A program made the position numbers and the translations under genes. 27,835 nt of DNA from a virus, in the IMG/VR virus record IMGVR_UViG_3300020470_000164, positions 1 through 27,835 of that record, one strand, 5' to 3'. Shown piece by piece: positions 1 through 5,252 of this stretch (positions within the stretch are counted from its first letter, which is position 1; every line of letters starts with the position of its first letter). The notes under the pieces are model-generated. The model saw only the letters and a program-made list of their open reading frames with translations. It was not told the DNA's origin and ran no database searches.

Positions 1-6
1 CTAACA

Positions 7-198
7 ATGAAAGGAAACAAATTAACCCCAGAAAAAGCACAAGAATTAACACGTGATTTACTCGAAATAGTAACACAAAAGAGCAGTCAATCGTATAGTC
101 TATTAGAGGTAATAATTGACCAATATTTGTACTCACTAAATGATAAAGAAGTAGAAGAATTAGAGGGTATATTAGTTAACGAATTTGGGTACGATTAA
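7..198 (+). CDS. Small hypothetical phage protein (63 aa), acidic, helical
   Basis: This open frame encodes 63 residues starting MKGNKLTPEKAQELTRDLL and ending EFGYD. The composition is rich in E, L, K and Q with regular hydrophobic spacing, which suggests two or three helices. It has no signal peptide, membrane segment or recognisable catalytic motif. The start is only six bases from the window edge, so the upstream ribosome-binding region cannot be judged and an earlier in-frame start cannot be excluded. Its stop is one base before the ATG of the next gene, which suggests co-transcription and translational coupling. I do not recognise the family. Small genes of this sort fill early and accessory regions of T4-like cyanophages. 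Confidence 0.6.
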   Translation: MKGNKLTPEKAQELTRDLLEIVTQKSSQSYSLLEVIIDQYLYSLNDKEVEELEGILVNEFGYD

Positions 199-199
199 C

Positions 200-388
200 A
201 TGTCTAAGTATACACCAAAGAAGGGTAATAATACCCCAGAAAATGATAGAAATGCACTGTTAAAAAAGGCATATATTGAGTATCATTCTCCGTGGAATAC
301 TAAGGAGGAAAAATCACATTGGAAAGGGGTAATTACTGCACTATCTGATAACAACTATACATGGAGTTTTCCACAGATAGAGGAGTAA
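200..388 (+). CDS. Small hypothetical phage protein (62 aa)
   Basis: The protein begins MSKYTPKKGNNTPENDRNAL and ends WSFPQIEE. I chose the ATG at 200, one base after the upstream stop codon, rather than the in-frame TTG at 185. The TTG would overlap the previous gene and has no better ribosome-binding site. It has a basic, polar N-terminus, an aromatic middle (YIEYHSPW) and a second conserved-looking stretch (HWKGVI). No membrane segment or known domain is visible, and I do not recognise the family. The last codons contain TTTTCCACA, the first of a cluster of such sites that continues into the non-coding region, so part of this sequence may be under dual constraint. The tight junction with 7-198 suggests an operon pair. 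Confidence 0.65.
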   Translation: MSKYTPKKGNNTPENDRNALLKKAYIEYHSPWNTKEEKSHWKGVITALSDNNYTWSFPQIEE

Positions 389-400
389 ATCTGTGGAAAA
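367..400. repeat. Perfect 10-bp inverted repeat at the end of the 62-aa gene
   Basis: TTTTCCACAG (367-376) and CTGTGGAAAA (391-400) are perfect inverted copies separated by 14 nt that include the stop codon of the upstream gene. It can be read as two divergent DnaA-like boxes or as a hairpin. No T-tract follows on either strand, so it is not a typical intrinsic terminator. Confidence 0.7.
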
Positions 401-675
401 GTGTTATAAATGGGGTTCTAAATGTAATAATAAATATAAGGTTGTGTTGTATACTTTTCCACAAAGGTGTTAATAATAGGGATAAATATGTGGATTAAAT
501 GTGAAGAATTGGTTGATAATCTGTGGAATAAAGGTGATACTTTGTAGTGATTTTAGCGAGCAGTTTATCACACTTTCTCTCAGAAGTCAATAGGGGGTTT
601 ATAACAGTTAACAGACCCACGGTTTTTGTTACATAACGGCAATAAATACACTCACGAACTTGACACTTTTCCACA
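367..675. other. Cluster of cyanobacterial-type DnaA-box-like sites (candidate origin or regulatory region)
   Basis: The 9-mer TTTTCCACA occurs exactly four times in 309 bp: 367-375 (+), 392-400 (-), 455-463 (+) and 667-675 (+). A one-mismatch copy lies at 522-530 (-, TATTCCACA). Two-mismatch copies (TAATCCACA) lie at 489-497 (-) and 795-803 (+). As I recall it, TTTTCCACA is the reported cyanobacterial DnaA box; the E. coli form is TTATCCACA. The stretch at 401-450 between the boxes is AT-rich. Positions 389-720 otherwise contain no convincing gene. A 19-codon ATG-initiated frame at 488-547 is too short to support. Origin function, or DnaA-responsive control, is inferred. Confidence 0.45.
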
Positions 676-688
676 GTCATCTTATAAT
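660..688 (+). promoter_or_regulatory. Perfect-consensus sigma70-type promoter (P1)
   Basis: TTGACA at 660-665 and TATAAT at 683-688 are separated by exactly 17 bp. Transcription would begin near 695, about 25 nt before the ATG at 721. The spacer contains an exact TTTTCCACA (667-675), so a protein bound there would compete with RNA polymerase. Early genes of T4-like cyanophages are read by host sigma70-type polymerase, which fits this element. Confidence 0.85.
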
Positions 689-720
689 GAATTGTATACA
701 CTCAAAGCACCGTATTTCTC

Positions 721-882
721 ATGCCTTATTATCACACAGTAGGCACACAGAAAAGATATAGAATTACACTGGATTTGTCAGTAGAAAGTGATTTTAATCC
801 ACATGATATTGACTACAGAAAGTTATTCGAATTGGATGGTGATTATGAGGACGTTTCTGTATACGTAGAAGACCTAAATTAA
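721..882 (+). CDS. Small hypothetical acidic protein (53 aa) behind promoter P1
   Basis: The frame starts ATG CCT TAT TAT and encodes MPYYHTVGTQKRYRITLDLS, continuing through FNPHDIDYRKLFEL to an acidic C-terminus VYVEDLN. The alternating pattern (KRYRITLDLSVES, then EDVSVYVEDL) predicts two beta-strands flanking a short helix. No catalytic or metal-binding motif is visible. There is no Shine-Dalgarno sequence, but the perfect promoter P1 sits 33 nt upstream, which is the main reason to accept the gene despite its size. It is the only plausible gene between 389 and 1208. It may be an early regulatory or host-takeover protein, but that is a guess from position. Confidence 0.65.
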   Translation: MPYYHTVGTQKRYRITLDLSVESDFNPHDIDYRKLFELDGDYEDVSVYVEDLN

Positions 883-891
883 CAGTACATT

Positions 892-1012
892 AGTAACACT
901 TAGCAGTACACACAGTTGTTGACAGTAACTGTGTGATATGTTATAATACTAAGTAACACATAGGACACGCACAGTTATTAACAGTCCCATGCGTGTAATT
1001 TGCCATGCGTAG
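892..1012. repeat. Imperfect tandem duplication of a ~60-bp promoter/operator unit
   Basis: Unit 1 spans about 892-951 and unit 2 about 952-1012. Both begin AGTAACAC[T/A]TAG (892-903 and 952-963). Both continue with a closely related 16-mer, CACAGTTGTTGACAGT at 911-926 and CACAGTTATTAACAGT at 970-985 (14 of 16 identical). Each unit has an inverted repeat around that 16-mer: CACACAGTT/AACTGTGTG (909-917/927-935) in unit 1, and ACACGCA/TGCGTGT (965-971/990-996) in unit 2. Only unit 1 keeps good -35 and -10 boxes. A further ACAGTTATT at 1027-1035 may be the remains of a third unit. Confidence 0.6.
919..947 (+). promoter_or_regulatory. Perfect-consensus sigma70-type promoter (P2) with operator-like dyad over the -35
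   Basis: TTGACA (919-924) and TATAAT (942-947) are separated by 17 bp. A perfect 9-bp inverted repeat, CACACAGTT (909-917) and AACTGTGTG (927-935), encloses the -35 box. This is the geometry expected of a repressor operator that blocks polymerase. Transcription would start near 954 and read toward the 73-aa gene at 1209 through a long leader. Confidence 0.8.
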
Positions 1013-1208
1013 ATGATGCGTATCGGACAGTTATTATGCGCCTTATGTGTTATTAAGGGCGGCGGCGTTGCGTATATAAAAAAAGCAAACAACCCTAACC
1101 TACAGAGGCGACAAATCGAGAGAGAAATATTAATAGAAAAAAAATTTCTGGCCAGTAAAAACGCCCTTATTACCTTTTCATATATAATAAAATTTTCCCC
1201 AATATAAT
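948..1208 (+). other. Gene-poor leader between P2 and the 73-aa gene
   Basis: I see no convincing gene here. An open frame from 1013 to 1207 has low-quality composition, no ribosome-binding site, and begins inside the repeat region. The stretch contains three ATGCGT hexamers (989-994, 1005-1010, 1016-1021), two of them within 8-bp CCATGCGT repeats 16 bp apart. It also has an 8-bp complementary pair, TAAGGGCG (1054-1061) and CGCCCTTA (1162-1169), about 100 nt apart, and a GC-rich patch at 1057-1072 that stands out in this AT-rich DNA. A structured 5' leader is possible but not established. Confidence 0.35.
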
Positions 1209-1430
1209 ATGCAAGATATAGATGATACTACTTACCATATCTACGCAAAGGATAAGTGTCTATATCATAATTTAAATCAGGAAGACTTTGAAGAGAAATG
1301 GGAGTTATTAAAAGTAATGATTGACCTTCTTGGGGGTGATTATAAGGAGGAAGATTTAAGTTATGAGAGACTTGCGCCCAAAGTGGGTTACGGAGGTCCT
1401 GGTAAAGTAATCGAAGAACATTCATATTGA
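1209..1430 (+). CDS. Conserved-type cyanophage hypothetical protein (73 aa)
   Basis: The protein starts MQDIDDTTYHIYAKDKCLYH and ends VGYGGPGKVIEEHSY. The N-terminal half looks like a beta-hairpin (TYHIYAKDKCLYHNL), followed by a helix with many acidic and aromatic residues (EDFEEKWELLKVMIDLLG) and a glycine-rich tail. The pattern resembles small hypothetical proteins I associate with T4-like cyanophages, but I can name no function. There is no Shine-Dalgarno sequence; an AT-rich stretch precedes the ATG. Its stop codon overlaps the -35 box of promoter P3, so the next gene has its own promoter embedded at the end of this one. Confidence 0.7.
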   Translation: MQDIDDTTYHIYAKDKCLYHNLNQEDFEEKWELLKVMIDLLGGDYKEEDLSYERLAPKVGYGGPGKVIEEHSY

Positions 1431-1455
1431 CAAATACTATATAAACTGTTAAAAT
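1427..1455 (+). promoter_or_regulatory. Near-consensus sigma70-type promoter (P3) for the glycosyltransferase-like gene
   Basis: TTGACA (1427-1432) and TAAAAT (1450-1455, one mismatch to TATAAT) are separated by 17 bp. Transcription would start near 1462, about 17 nt before the ATG at 1479. The -35 box overlaps the TGA stop of the 73-aa gene. The spacer also contains TATATAAA, somewhat like a phage late promoter, so dual use is conceivable. Confidence 0.7.
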
Positions 1456-1478
1456 TAAAATGAAGCGAGTATTTAAGT

Positions 1479-2246
1479 ATGGCTAAAGGATTTAAAGTCA
1501 AAACAGTTGCACCGAAAACCAAAGAACCAGAATGGGATATCGATGCAATTAAGCAAAGAATGAAAGGAAAAGCAATTGTCTTCTGTTTACCAGGAAGAGG
1601 TTGTTCGTATATCTTTCTAAAGAACTTTGTACAACTGTGCTTTGATATGGTACAGAATGGAATGAGTATTCAGATTAGTCAGGATTACTCTTCTATGGTT
1701 AACTTTGCACGTTGTAAGGTATTAGGTGCAAATGTACTCCGTGGACCAAAACAAATACCTTGGGATGGTAAACTTACATATGACTATCAGTTGTGGATTG
1801 ACTCAGACATTGTATTTGATACTAACAAATTCTGGCAATTATGCGATCTAGCAGTTGATAAGGACGGTAATGAAAAAGAGATCGTTGCTGGTTGGTATGC
1901 TACGGAAGATGGTAGTACTACTTCGATTGCTCATTGGTTAGAGGAAGAAGATTTCAGAAAGAACGGTGGTGTTATGAATCACGAAACCGTTGAGACTATG
2001 GGTAAGCGTAAGAAACCATTTACTTGTGATTATACAGGTTTTGGTTGGGTAATGATTAAGAATGGCGTTTTTGAGAAGTTAGAGTATCCTTGGTTTGCTC
2101 CTAAGATGCAAGTCTTTGAGAGTGGAGATGTTCAAGATATGTGTGGAGAAGACGTATCGTTCTGTTTAGATGCACAAGACGAAGGTTTTGAGATATGGGC
2201 GGATCCTCGTATTCGTGTAGGTCACGAAAAAACTCGTGTAATCTAA
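1479..2246 (+). CDS. GT-A-fold glycosyltransferase-like protein (255 aa)
   Basis: The protein probably transfers a sugar from a nucleotide-sugar donor; donor and acceptor are unknown. After a basic N-terminus comes a beta-strand with a possible donor-site loop (AIVFCLPGRGCSY, about 31-43). Later WIDSDIVF (106-113) carries the D108-S-D110 triad typical of the metal-binding DXD motif of GT-A enzymes. A TGFGWVMIKNGVFEKL segment, then CGEDVSFC (E224, D225), resembles the acceptor-side ED motif. A late histidine (GHEKTRVI, H249) could be the third metal ligand. There is no signal peptide or membrane segment, so it should be cytoplasmic. Glycosyltransferases in T4-like phages modify DNA or virion proteins; with tail genes downstream, virion modification is possible but inferred. 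Promoter P3 precedes it, and its stop overlaps the next start (TAATG). Confidence 0.75.
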   Translation: MAKGFKVKTVAPKTKEPEWDIDAIKQRMKGKAIVFCLPGRGCSYIFLKNFVQLCFDMVQNGMSIQISQDYSSMVNFARCKVLGANVLRGPKQIPWDGKLTYDYQLWIDSDIVFDTNKFWQLCDLAVDKDGNEKEIVAGWYATEDGSTTSIAHWLEEEDFRKNGGVMNHETVETMGKRKKPFTCDYTGFGWVMIKNGVFEKLEYPWFAPKMQVFESGDVQDMCGEDVSFCLDAQDEGFEIWADPRIRVGHEKTRVI

Positions 2247-2401
2247 TGGATCGTATTAGTAAAATCATCTACCATTCTACTACAGATGACTTATGGGATC
2301 TCTCCGCAGAGATCCTCACCGAACTCTCTCGTAGAGAGAACATTCAGTACCGCATAAAAGCAACGGAGGAATCCGTGCAAAAGAAACTTTTATCCTTATG
2401 A
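2246..2401 (+). CDS. Small hypothetical protein (51 aa), translationally coupled
   Basis: I chose the ATG at 2246, which shares one base with the upstream stop codon (TAATG). A longer in-frame reading from 2195 would run back through the glycosyltransferase gene in another frame. The protein starts MDRISKIIYHSTTDDLWDLS and ends QKKLLSL. It is predicted to be helical, with charged and leucine-rich stretches (DLWDLSAEILTELSRRENI). No known domain or membrane segment is visible. It overlaps the next gene by ATGA at 2398-2401, so the three genes from 1479 to 2490 should be translated from one mRNA by termination-reinitiation. Function unknown. Confidence 0.7.
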   Translation: MDRISKIIYHSTTDDLWDLSAEILTELSRRENIQYRIKATEESVQKKLLSL

Positions 2402-2918: not shown

Positions 2919-3320
2919 ATGCCAGCTCAAAGAGTAAGCAAAGCATTTAAAGATATAAGCATGTCATTTAAGTTTAACCCCTTAAGTGGTGATTTGATTG
3001 GTTTGAAAAATGAAAATGCGATTGCAAGGTCTGTAAGGAACATAGTATTAACAAGTCCAGGTGAAAAAATACACGATCCTGAGTTTGGTTCAAATATAAG
3101 TGCTCTTTTGTTCGAAAATGTAGATGAAGTATCTGCAATTGGTATTCGTGATGAAATTGAGAACTCTTTAAAGAATTATGAACCTAGAATTGAATTAGAA
3201 GATGTTATTGTTGATCCAAATTACGATAATAACCAATTTGATTGCATTATTACGTATAGAATCGTTGGTATCGACGTTCCACCAACACAATTAGAATTTG
3301 CGCTGCTTCCATCACGATAA
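2919..3320 (+). CDS. 25: Baseplate wedge subunit gp25
   Basis: This is a T4 gp25-like baseplate wedge protein of 133 aa (T4 gp25 is 132 aa). The family is homologous to TssE of type VI secretion and initiates sheath polymerisation at the baseplate. The diagnostic core motif EPR is present at residues 88-90 in NYEPRIELEDV. Upstream, a helix-rich region includes RSVRNIVLTSPGEKIHDPEF, where the LTSPGE(K/R).(H/D)P.FG pattern is typical of gp25/GpW-like baseplate proteins. The older label 'lysozyme-like' for this family does not imply enzyme activity. Its TAA is followed directly by the ATG of gp6 (TAAATG), so the two should be made in proportion, consistent with gp25 and gp6 acting in the same wedge. 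Confidence 0.93.
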   Translation: MPAQRVSKAFKDISMSFKFNPLSGDLIGLKNENAIARSVRNIVLTSPGEKIHDPEFGSNISALLFENVDEVSAIGIRDEIENSLKNYEPRIELEDVIVDPNYDNNQFDCIITYRIVGIDVPPTQLEFALLPSR

Positions 3321-5252
3321 ATGGCTCTTTTAAACTTTACTAGTCTGGATTTTGACCAGATTAAGACAACTCTTAAAGATTATTTAAGATCTAACTCTAA
3401 TTTTACAGATTATGACTTCGAAGGGTCAAATTTGTCGTCAATTATTGATGTTTTAGCATATAATACCTATATTAATTCATATAATGCCAATATGATCTCA
3501 AATGAGGTCTTTATTGATAGTGCAACATTAAGAGAAAACGTTGTTGCACTGGCAAGAAACATCGGATATATCCCAAGATCACGAAAATCATCAAAAGCAA
3601 CCATAAGTTTTACTGTAGAAGCAGGAATTACACCTCCTCCAAGCACTGTAACCCTTAAAAAAGGACCTGTTGCGAGTACAGGCAACTCTTTTGGAGGAAC
3701 TTCTTACGTTTTTGGTATTACAAAGGATATTACGAAACCAGTTATCGACGGAATTGCTAATTTTTTCGATATTAACGTATTTGAAGGGTCTGTTGTTGAC
3801 CAATCCTTCACTTTTTCGACTGCAAACGTAAATCAAAGGTTCGTTTTATCAAATGCGGGGATAGATTTAGACACTTTAGAGGTAAATGTACGTCCAAGTG
3901 CTACTTCTTCACTCAGATCTGCTTATACAAGGCAAGATTCGCTATTTGATGCCAATTCTGGGTCTTCAATTACTGGAAAATCACTAATTTACTACCTTCA
4001 AGAGATAGAAGATGAGCAATATGAGGTAATTTTTGGTGATGGTATCTTCGGAAAAGCATTAGATGACGGAAATATCGTCGAAGTGTCCTATATTATTAGT
4101 AATGGACCAGAAGGTAACGGAATTAGTAACCTTGCATTTAGTGGAAGGTGTACTTATAGCAGAAATGCAGTCGAAAACACTATCACTAGTGGTATATCCT
4201 TAATCACCGCTGAGAACCCCTCCAGTGGCGGTGAGTTGATCGAAAGCGTTGACTCCGTTAAAAAGTATGCACCGCAGATTTATGCTACTCAGAACCGTGC
4301 TCTGACTGCAAATGACTATGAAATCCTAATTCCTAACAAAATTTACCCTGAAGCAGAGTCAATTTCTGTATATGGAGGTGAAGAACTAGTTCCTCCTCAA
4401 TATGGAAAGGTTTTTATTAGTATAAAACCAAGAGTTGGTGATTTTGTACCTAATGCAATCAAGGAAAATATCAAAAGAGACCTTAAAAAGTATGCTGTAG
4501 CAGGTATTGTACCCGAAATTCTTGATCTTAAGTACCTATTCCTCGAAACAGACAGTAAAGTTTACTATAATTCGAATTTAGCACCCAATTCACCCTTTGT
4601 TTCTTCCGTTATTCTGTCAAATATCAATAAATTGGCAGAATCTGCTGAATTAAATAAGTATGGTGCAAGGTTCAAATACAGTAAATTCTTGAAAGTTATT
4701 GACCAAAGTCACGAATCTATCACTTCAAACATCACTACTGTTCAAATGAGAAGAGATTTGAGACTTGCAGTTGATCAATTTGCTGAATATGCTATTGATT
4801 TTGGTAATCAATTCCATATTTCATCAATGGAAGGGTATAATATTAGGTCTAGTGGATTCAGAGTACTGGATATCACACCTGATGTTTACCTATATGACCT
4901 ACCAAACACTGATAAAAAGACGGGAACTATCAATTTGTTCTCTCTAGATTCTCCAGGATCAACTACACCAACTATTCAGAGGCAAAATATTGGTGTTGTT
5001 GACTATATTAAGGGACGTATTACCTTAAATCCCATCAATATTACTGCTGGAAAAACTAAAGATAACCAGCAAATCATGGAAATTTCGACAATTCCTGAAT
5101 CAAATGACGTTATTGGATTACAGGATCTTTATTTGCAACTAGATACTAGTAACGTAGAGATGGTTGTTGATGAAATTGCCTCTGGTGCTGATCCATCAGG
5201 TTCTACATACACCGTTACACCAAGTTATAACGCTAAGAAGATCGTAAGATAA
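3321..5252 (+). CDS. 6: Baseplate wedge subunit gp6
   Basis: The protein is 643 aa, close to T4 gp6 (660 aa). It starts MALLNFTSLDFDQIKTTLKD, the usual N-terminus of this family, followed by YNTYINSYNANMISNEVFID and ARNIGYIPRSRKSSKA, also family-typical. A baseplate-J-like core lies near residues 325-400, with LTANDYEILIPNKIYPEAES, a GG-containing turn and YGKVFISIKP. In T4, gp6 dimers form the inner ring that joins wedges and closes the baseplate around the hub. There is no frameshift or truncation. It begins directly after the gp25 stop and ends four bases before the giant gene, in the same order as T4 25-6-7-8. Confidence 0.92.
   Translation: MALLNFTSLDFDQIKTTLKDYLRSNSNFTDYDFEGSNLSSIIDVLAYNTYINSYNANMISNEVFIDSATLRENVVALARNIGYIPRSRKSSKATISFTVEAGITPPPSTVTLKKGPVASTGNSFGGTSYVFGITKDITKPVIDGIANFFDINVFEGSVVDQSFTFSTANVNQRFVLSNAGIDLDTLEVNVRPSATSSLRSAYTRQDSLFDANSGSSITGKSLIYYLQEIEDEQYEVIFGDGIFGKALDDGNIVEVSYIISNGPEGNGISNLAFSGRCTYSRNAVENTITSGISLITAENPSSGGELIESVDSVKKYAPQIYATQNRALTANDYEILIPNKIYPEAESISVYGGEELVPPQYGKVFISIKPRVGDFVPNAIKENIKRDLKKYAVAGIVPEILDLKYLFLETDSKVYYNSNLAPNSPFVSSVILSNINKLAESAELNKYGARFKYSKFLKVIDQSHESITSNITTVQMRRDLRLAVDQFAEYAIDFGNQFHISSMEGYNIRSSGFRVLDITPDVYLYDLPNTDKKTGTINLFSLDSPGSTTPTIQRQNIGVVDYIKGRITLNPINITAGKTKDNQQIMEISTIPESNDVIGLQDLYLQLDTSNVEMVVDEIASGADPSGSTYTVTPSYNAKKIVR

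Follow-up and report, generated by a model that had tools for sequence, protein, structure and literature searches.

A helically phased array of cyanobacterial-type DnaA boxes upstream of the baseplate genes of T4-like cyanophages, a candidate replication origin or regulatory site

To our knowledge, T4-like phages are regarded as DnaA-independent, and the locus described here raises the question of why a T4-like cyanophage would carry a cluster of what look like binding sites for the replication initiator of its host. The window analysed in this study comprises an entire viral record, 27,835 bp long, from a T4-like cyanophage. A motif scan of the whole window found the four exact copies of TTTTCCACA listed below and no further exact copy in the 27,835-bp record, in agreement with the sequence-only reading, which had reported four exact copies and one copy with a single mismatch near 367-675 and none elsewhere. 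The features to which we refer throughout are the following.

367-375, + strand: exact DnaA box 1, overlapping the last codons of an ORF that ends at 388
392-400, - strand: exact DnaA box 2, inverted, 25 bp after box 1
401-454, no strand: AT-rich spacer separating boxes 2 and 3, about 74% AT by eye count, with ATAAATA at 430-436; candidate unwinding element
455-463, + strand: exact DnaA box 3, 63 bp after box 2
489-497, - strand: weak box-like site TAATCCACA with the core TCCACA
522-530, - strand: weak box TATTCCACA, one mismatch
547-573, + strand: conserved element GTGATTTTAGCGAGC-N4-TATCACAC, adjoining the array and used as a box-independent search key
642-648, + strand: conserved ATAAATA string between the element and the sigma70-like promoter
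660-688, + strand: putative sigma70-like promoter TTGACA-N17-TATAAT, in relatives at about -60 of the ORF start
667-675, + strand: exact DnaA box 4, within the spacer of the sigma70-like promoter; it follows box 3 by 212 bp (20.2 turns)
721-882, + strand: 53-aa ORF, PHROG 12516, downstream of the putative promoter
1479-2246, + strand: 255-aa protein, phrog_1574, some relatives of which are named glycosyltransferase; anchor gene for finding relatives
2919-3320, + strand: baseplate wedge gp25, a synteny anchor
3321-5252, + strand: baseplate wedge gp6, identified by synteny with S-SM2 gp6; an anchor in common with T4 gene 6

The claim that such a cluster is far beyond chance was borne out. When the whole window was randomised 300 times by a first-order Markov model, three copies of TTTTCCACA occurred in 2 of the randomised sequences and four in none, while among 20,000 Markov copies (360 bp) of the region 389-720 there were 175 with one copy and none with two. 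The window thus holds, above chance, at least three exact copies within a few hundred bp, which is what defines a cluster of cyanobacterial-type DnaA boxes. Copies of TTTTCCACA with at most one mismatch number 15 over the whole window against 13.6 expected, and since these show no window-wide excess the signal lies in the exact motif and in its clustering. The accompanying statement that the DNA between the boxes is AT-rich holds for 401-454 but not for the region overall, which is barely AT-richer than the rest; GC is 0.32-0.34 in the segments 1-500 and 251-750.

The nine-letter motif is reported (PMC4674748, PMC6323995) to be the DnaA box of most cyanobacteria, found beside dnaN, and the first of these papers describes Prochlorococcus as lacking a DnaA box near dnaA. 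In the DNA upstream of dnaN of 11 host genomes (Prochlorococcus, Synechococcus and relatives) we found 2-5 sites with at most one mismatch in every case. Exact boxes precede dnaN in just three of these hosts, the other eight having one-mismatch sites only, so the phage boxes are often nearer to the consensus than those of the host itself. A DnaA C-terminal domain was found in none of 21 cyanophages and not in T4, and we infer that host DnaA is the natural ligand of the array. The published motif, the near-matches upstream of host dnaN, the conservation of the locus and the helical phasing of the sites together support the assignment of the boxes to the cyanobacterial DnaA type, made in the sequence-only reading. 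Host DnaA very likely binds the array, judging from a motif that equals the published box, is confined to the locus and is helically phased, from the lack of a phage DnaA and from the position corresponding to T4 oriE. A separate observation concerns the hosts: in at least 7 of 14 picocyanobacterial genomes, two inverted exact copies of TTTTCCACA stand precisely 44 bp apart (G057 C2:53998/54042, G058 C2:241054/241098, G059 C10:171472/171516, G060 C8:5082/5126, G061 C9:18655/18699, G062 C6:70487/70531 and G065 C12:22175/22219). The pair is intergenic in the three loci that were read (L434-L436), with no dnaN match there, and it may serve the host for DnaA titration or regulation.

The same motif recurs at the same place in relatives of this phage. 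A search with the 255-aa protein retrieved 80 relatives in IMG/VR, and the resulting anchor set of 84 loci (these relatives and four named phages), taken together with the window, has 54 exact boxes in 121 kb at 2,700-300 bp before the anchor gene versus 2 in 330 kb of flanking DNA. One-mismatch variants of the 9-mer mostly show little or no enrichment across the locus in this set; TTATCCACA, ATTTCCACA and TTTTTCACA are enriched there, on very small counts. The 21 complete named cyanophage genomes have 0-11 exact boxes each, and seven of them (S-SM2, P-TIM68, DSL-LC02, P-SSM7, S-RIM2, Syn19 and S-CAM3) have a close cluster, defined as at least two exact boxes within 100 bp, all such clusters lying 1.5-5.6 kb upstream of gp25. 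The other 14 have no close cluster, so the array is not universally needed; two of these, S-SCSM1 and S-SSM4, each carry just one box, roughly 5-6 kb before gp25. Conservation at the locus was therefore found to be real in that the cluster recurs there and the motif is rare elsewhere, but patchy across relatives.

Two controls for ascertainment bear on this point. Location-blind scans of IMG/VR for box pairs, both same-orientation and inverted, yielded at least 215 new loci, and 118 of the 215 listed passed the mapping cut-off of 80 bits or more for a protein match in S-SM2 or P-TIM68. Among the box-pair matches listed, 103 of the 118 mappable loci had their nearest match in the block before gp25/gp6, which makes up 9.7% of S-SM2 and 6.5% of P-TIM68, whereas the reversed motif, given the same treatment, yielded at least 120 loci, with 17 mappable and one in the block among the matches listed. 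The second control was a scan of IMG/VR with the conserved, box-less element beside the array, which retrieved 36 loci; for locus counts 25 were kept (near-duplicates and those with less than 300 bp upstream were dropped), while base totals use all 36 stretches. At least one exact box was present in 19 of the 25 non-redundant loci, at least two in 17 and at least three in 15, and the 36 stretches held 65 boxes in 12,282 b upstream versus one in 239,555 b elsewhere. Being both location-blind and box-independent, the two controls identify the cluster as a conserved feature of the locus.

Relatives of the 53-aa ORF are present in 89 of 318 loci, and 69 of these 89, which have 350 bp upstream, were kept as a small-ORF set, reduced to 62 by removal of near-duplicates. 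The notion that variant boxes replace exact ones in box-less relatives was rejected: 15 of the 18 non-redundant loci without an exact box in -600 to -150 do not have even a one-mismatch site there, which implies that in most box-less loci the array was lost or another signal is used. The 12 nearest upstream regions were too divergent for their global alignment to be of use. The scans also reached beyond this phage group, in that 87 of the 215 listed loci had no cyanomyovirus homolog at all; phased box pairs occur in other viral contigs, in one next to an integrase (L113) and in another with terminase and portal genes (L137), and the 10.5-bp period is shared, among the matches listed, by same-orientation pairs whose loci have no 80-bit homolog (n = 62, R 0.46).

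The distances between the boxes are constrained as well. Box 1 is the first member of a +,-,+ trio in 21 of the 40 non-redundant loci with the 3' element, and in the trio set, comprising 21 non-redundant loci with boxes in this order, the distance from box 2 to box 3 is 63/64 bp (7 loci), 74/75 bp (12) or 85 bp (2), with none between these classes (n = 21, R 0.95 at 10.5 bp). Box 1 and box 2 are 24-26 bp apart in 20 of the 21 and 35 bp, one turn more, in the remaining one. In the 12 loci with both, box 3 and the promoter box are 168, 186, 189, 210-212, 220-221 or 242 bp apart (R 0.78 at 10.5 bp). The nominal p-values for phasing are too small because relatives share ancestry, and the discrete classes are the better evidence. 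Box distances that step by whole helical turns point to sites that must lie on one face of the DNA for a protein complex to assemble there. An arrangement of boxes conserved at one locus with constrained spacing, as an origin would call for, is thus present, although it is absent in part of the relatives.

S-SM2 and other lineages carry, in place of the trio, same-orientation boxes about 21 bp apart. Same-orientation pairs among the matches listed, with near-duplicates removed (n = 107), gave R 0.50 at 10.5 bp and R 0.20 at 3 bp, whereas pairs of the reversed-motif control, again among the matches listed (n = 82), gave R 0.56 at 3 bp and R 0.18 at 10.5. We considered the 21-bp spacing as an artefact, given that the control also peaks at 21, and rejected it: the control does so within a 3-bp coding rhythm, but the boxes follow 10.5. 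Neighbours in (-,+) order pooled over all loci show weak phasing among the matches listed (n = 31, R 0.34, p 0.03) because unrelated arrangements are mixed, and the phasing is strong only in the trio architecture.

In the clade of the window, a box (+) is followed after 24-25 bp by a box (-), an AT-rich spacer with ATAAATA, a box (+), weak box-like sites and then the element, and from the element on the order is GTGATnTTAGCGAGC-N4-TATnACAC, ATAAATA, TTGACA-N17-TATAAT and the small ORF. The core TCCACA is 5-fold enriched in array regions when exact boxes are excluded, and TATTCCACA is the most frequent weak site among 44 box-bearing loci. The ATAAATA string at 642-648 resembles the late-promoter consensus and presumably has a promoter role. 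The array is intergenic, upstream of gp25/gp6 and just before the 53-aa ORF, and gp25, gp6 and then a very long ORF follow to its right in the order of S-SM2. In several phages the box pair lies over the 3' end of a gene, which makes the array partly coding: the inverted pair reaches into the end of a coding gene in the P-SSM7 record (45973-46004; P-SSM7_077, T4-GC 383) and that of an ORF in S-RIM2 (48123-48154) and in the window (367-388, ORF ending at 388). The 53-aa ORF belongs to a PHROG without an assigned function and has no Pfam match and no solved relative; its model (mean pLDDT 78, moderate confidence) has a single short helix. After this ORF the window has a second, intergenic sigma70-like promoter sequence, TTGACA-N17-TATAAT, at 919-947, and a second conserved non-coding element at 1089-1121, around CCCTAACCTACAGAGG(C/T)GACAA(A/T)TCGA, before an ORF at 1209; this element is nearly identical in S-SM2 and SynMITS9220M01 and has no Rfam match.

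Taken as a whole, many T4-like cyanophages have a regularly spaced set of DnaA boxes at the same spot in their genomes, which suggests that they recruit the host initiator, most likely for DNA copying or for timing a nearby gene. The reading that we prefer, and to which we give about an even chance, is that host-DnaA sites arrayed over 367-688 act as, or within, an origin from which T4-like cyanophages replicate. This origin would correspond in position to T4 oriE, which counts in favour of the reading. Host DnaA would occupy the three strong boxes and the weaker sites beside them, forming a single complex on one face of the DNA that would strain the AT-rich DNA separating boxes 2 and 3; the strained spacer would then open and let in the helicase and primase of the phage. 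A box in or near the promoter that is in phase with the array would link this complex to transcription of the early ORF next to it, either providing a transcript for priming or allowing shut-off upon DnaA binding. The spacer is inferred to be the unwinding element from its composition. Just outside the arrays (75 bp, 39 loci), mean AT is 0.70-0.74 versus 0.596 genome-wide in S-SM2 and 0.657 in P-TIM68, a modest difference that is no more than suggestive of an unwinding element, AT-rich intergenic DNA being common. A DnaA-trio motif, expected beside a box in such origins, has been described (PMC8287927). GC skew, which the sequence-only reading had proposed as a check, lends no support to an origin: cumulative G-C rises through the locus with no turn in S-SM2 and P-TIM68, and no skew switch was found at the locus in these two genomes, whose nearly one-directional genes blunt the test. 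Initiation in T4 takes place via R-loops, and a gp59-like helicase loader is present in 16 of the 21 cyanophages; there is thus no obvious need of a DnaA route. We propose tentatively, and with less confidence than the origin reading itself, that a large group of lytic T4-like cyanophages assemble host DnaA on an oriC-like array, in the place of oriE and accompanied by a phased promoter box, to start replication, such that phage replication or early expression would follow host DnaA activity and thereby the cell cycle or daily rhythm, and that array-less lineages have switched their start.

The explanation that ranks next after an origin, though in itself unlikely, is a DnaA-responsive promoter switch, in which DnaA bound to the array and to the promoter box would form a loop and repress or activate the 53-aa ORF and the genes behind it, reading host DnaA activity with no need for replication to start here. 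As in DnaA-regulated promoters, where a box overlaps or adjoins the promoter, 667-675 lies inside the putative promoter 660-688, with box 4 between -35 and -10, and the promoter box stands near whole turns from box 3 over 168-242 bp. A box downstream of the element is present in 14 of 40 non-redundant element-bearing loci, its place varying by lineage between the promoter spacer (the window, L006, L027), a position just after -10 (L009) and one upstream of -35 (L239, L215, L281), but the other 26 have no promoter-proximal box. About 150 bp separate arrays like that of S-SM2 from the promoter downstream of them, and the box-less lineages L085 and L082 retain both promoter and ORF, which speaks against a switch. 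The box in the promoter, with its phasing, argues for a regulatory role, which would account for it as well as an origin does and is compatible with one.

It is improbable that the array is a decoy resembling datA, its strong boxes multiplied with the phage copies so as to soak up host DnaA and block re-initiation in the host. The exact consensus of the phage boxes, set against the one-mismatch sites upstream of dnaN in 8 of 11 hosts, would suit such a role, but a decoy needs neither a fixed locus nor helical steps, and here the +,-,+ order and the phasing are conserved. Somewhat less probable still is that another protein, phage-coded or host, uses a motif that equals the DnaA box by chance. 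The match to a DnaA array is one of sequence, and the adjacent element GTGATnTTAGCGAGC could be the site of a second protein; the full 9-bp identity with the cyanobacterial box argues against this idea, as do the enriched weak sites beside the boxes (TATTCCACA, TTCTCCACA, TTATCCACA and ATTTCCACA), which are also box-like. It is very improbable that the inverted repeat 367-378/389-400 acts at the RNA level, as a hairpin or terminator, and not as a DNA-binding site, in spite of its perfect 12-bp stem and folding z-score of -3.8 on the + strand, since no T run follows the stem, pairing beyond the 9-bp box is lost in the relatives L239 and L301, and many arrays are same-orientation (S-SM2, L080) and unable to fold in this way. 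Same-orientation arrays occupy the same locus, so we rejected the hairpin as a general reading and regard it as a by-product of two inverted boxes; no Rfam match was found in window 1-2400 at E up to 1.

In the literature searched, outside which most subscription papers fall, we found no published description of DnaA boxes in cyanomyoviruses and none of how replication starts in T4-like cyanophages, and a full-text term search of a comparative genome paper (PMC3037559) found no mention of DnaA or of a replication origin. T4-like cyanophages are among the commonest viruses of the sunlit ocean, and a conserved, helically phased candidate array for host DnaA is a precise and testable candidate for an origin or a sensor of host state that could tie infection to the Prochlorococcus and Synechococcus cell cycle.

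The proposed origin can be set beside several known systems. The cyanobacterial oriC of Synechococcus PCC 7942, Anabaena 7120 and Cyanothece 51142 has the same 9-mer TTTTCCACA (PMC4674748, PMC6323995) and shares with the phage array several copies within a few hundred bp, an intergenic location and AT-rich DNA nearby. The phage array differs in lying upstream of baseplate genes with neither dnaN nor dnaA beside it, and it is a candidate origin from sequence. Plasmids and temperate phages also have origins with DnaA boxes, P1 oriR being an example, and the phage array resembles oriR in placing host DnaA boxes on an extrachromosomal replicon. P1 has its own initiator, RepA, whereas the cyanophages are lytic and T4-like and no phage DnaA was found in them. 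Titration sites of the datA kind and DnaA-regulated promoters such as that of dnaA consist of clusters of strong boxes or have a box near or inside a promoter, and both traits are found in the phage array, which differs in being phage-borne and in combining array and promoter box at one conserved locus. The closest parallel in position is T4 oriE, whose rep_origin is annotated at 79,355, 1.7 kb upstream of gene 6, which starts at 81,081, so that both oriE and the phage array lie upstream of gene 6 in a T4-like genome. According to PMC3016281, T4 origins tend toward late regions and oriE carries a cluster of repeats of undefined role. These 12-nt repeats, RepEA and RepEB are further traits by which oriE is recognised. 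The motif TTWTNCACA is absent from the T4 oriE region (74-86 kb) and the surrounding gene content differs; both sites hold a repeat cluster, any homology between them would be conjectural, and the array could offer a functional counterpart for the unexplained repeats of T4 oriE.
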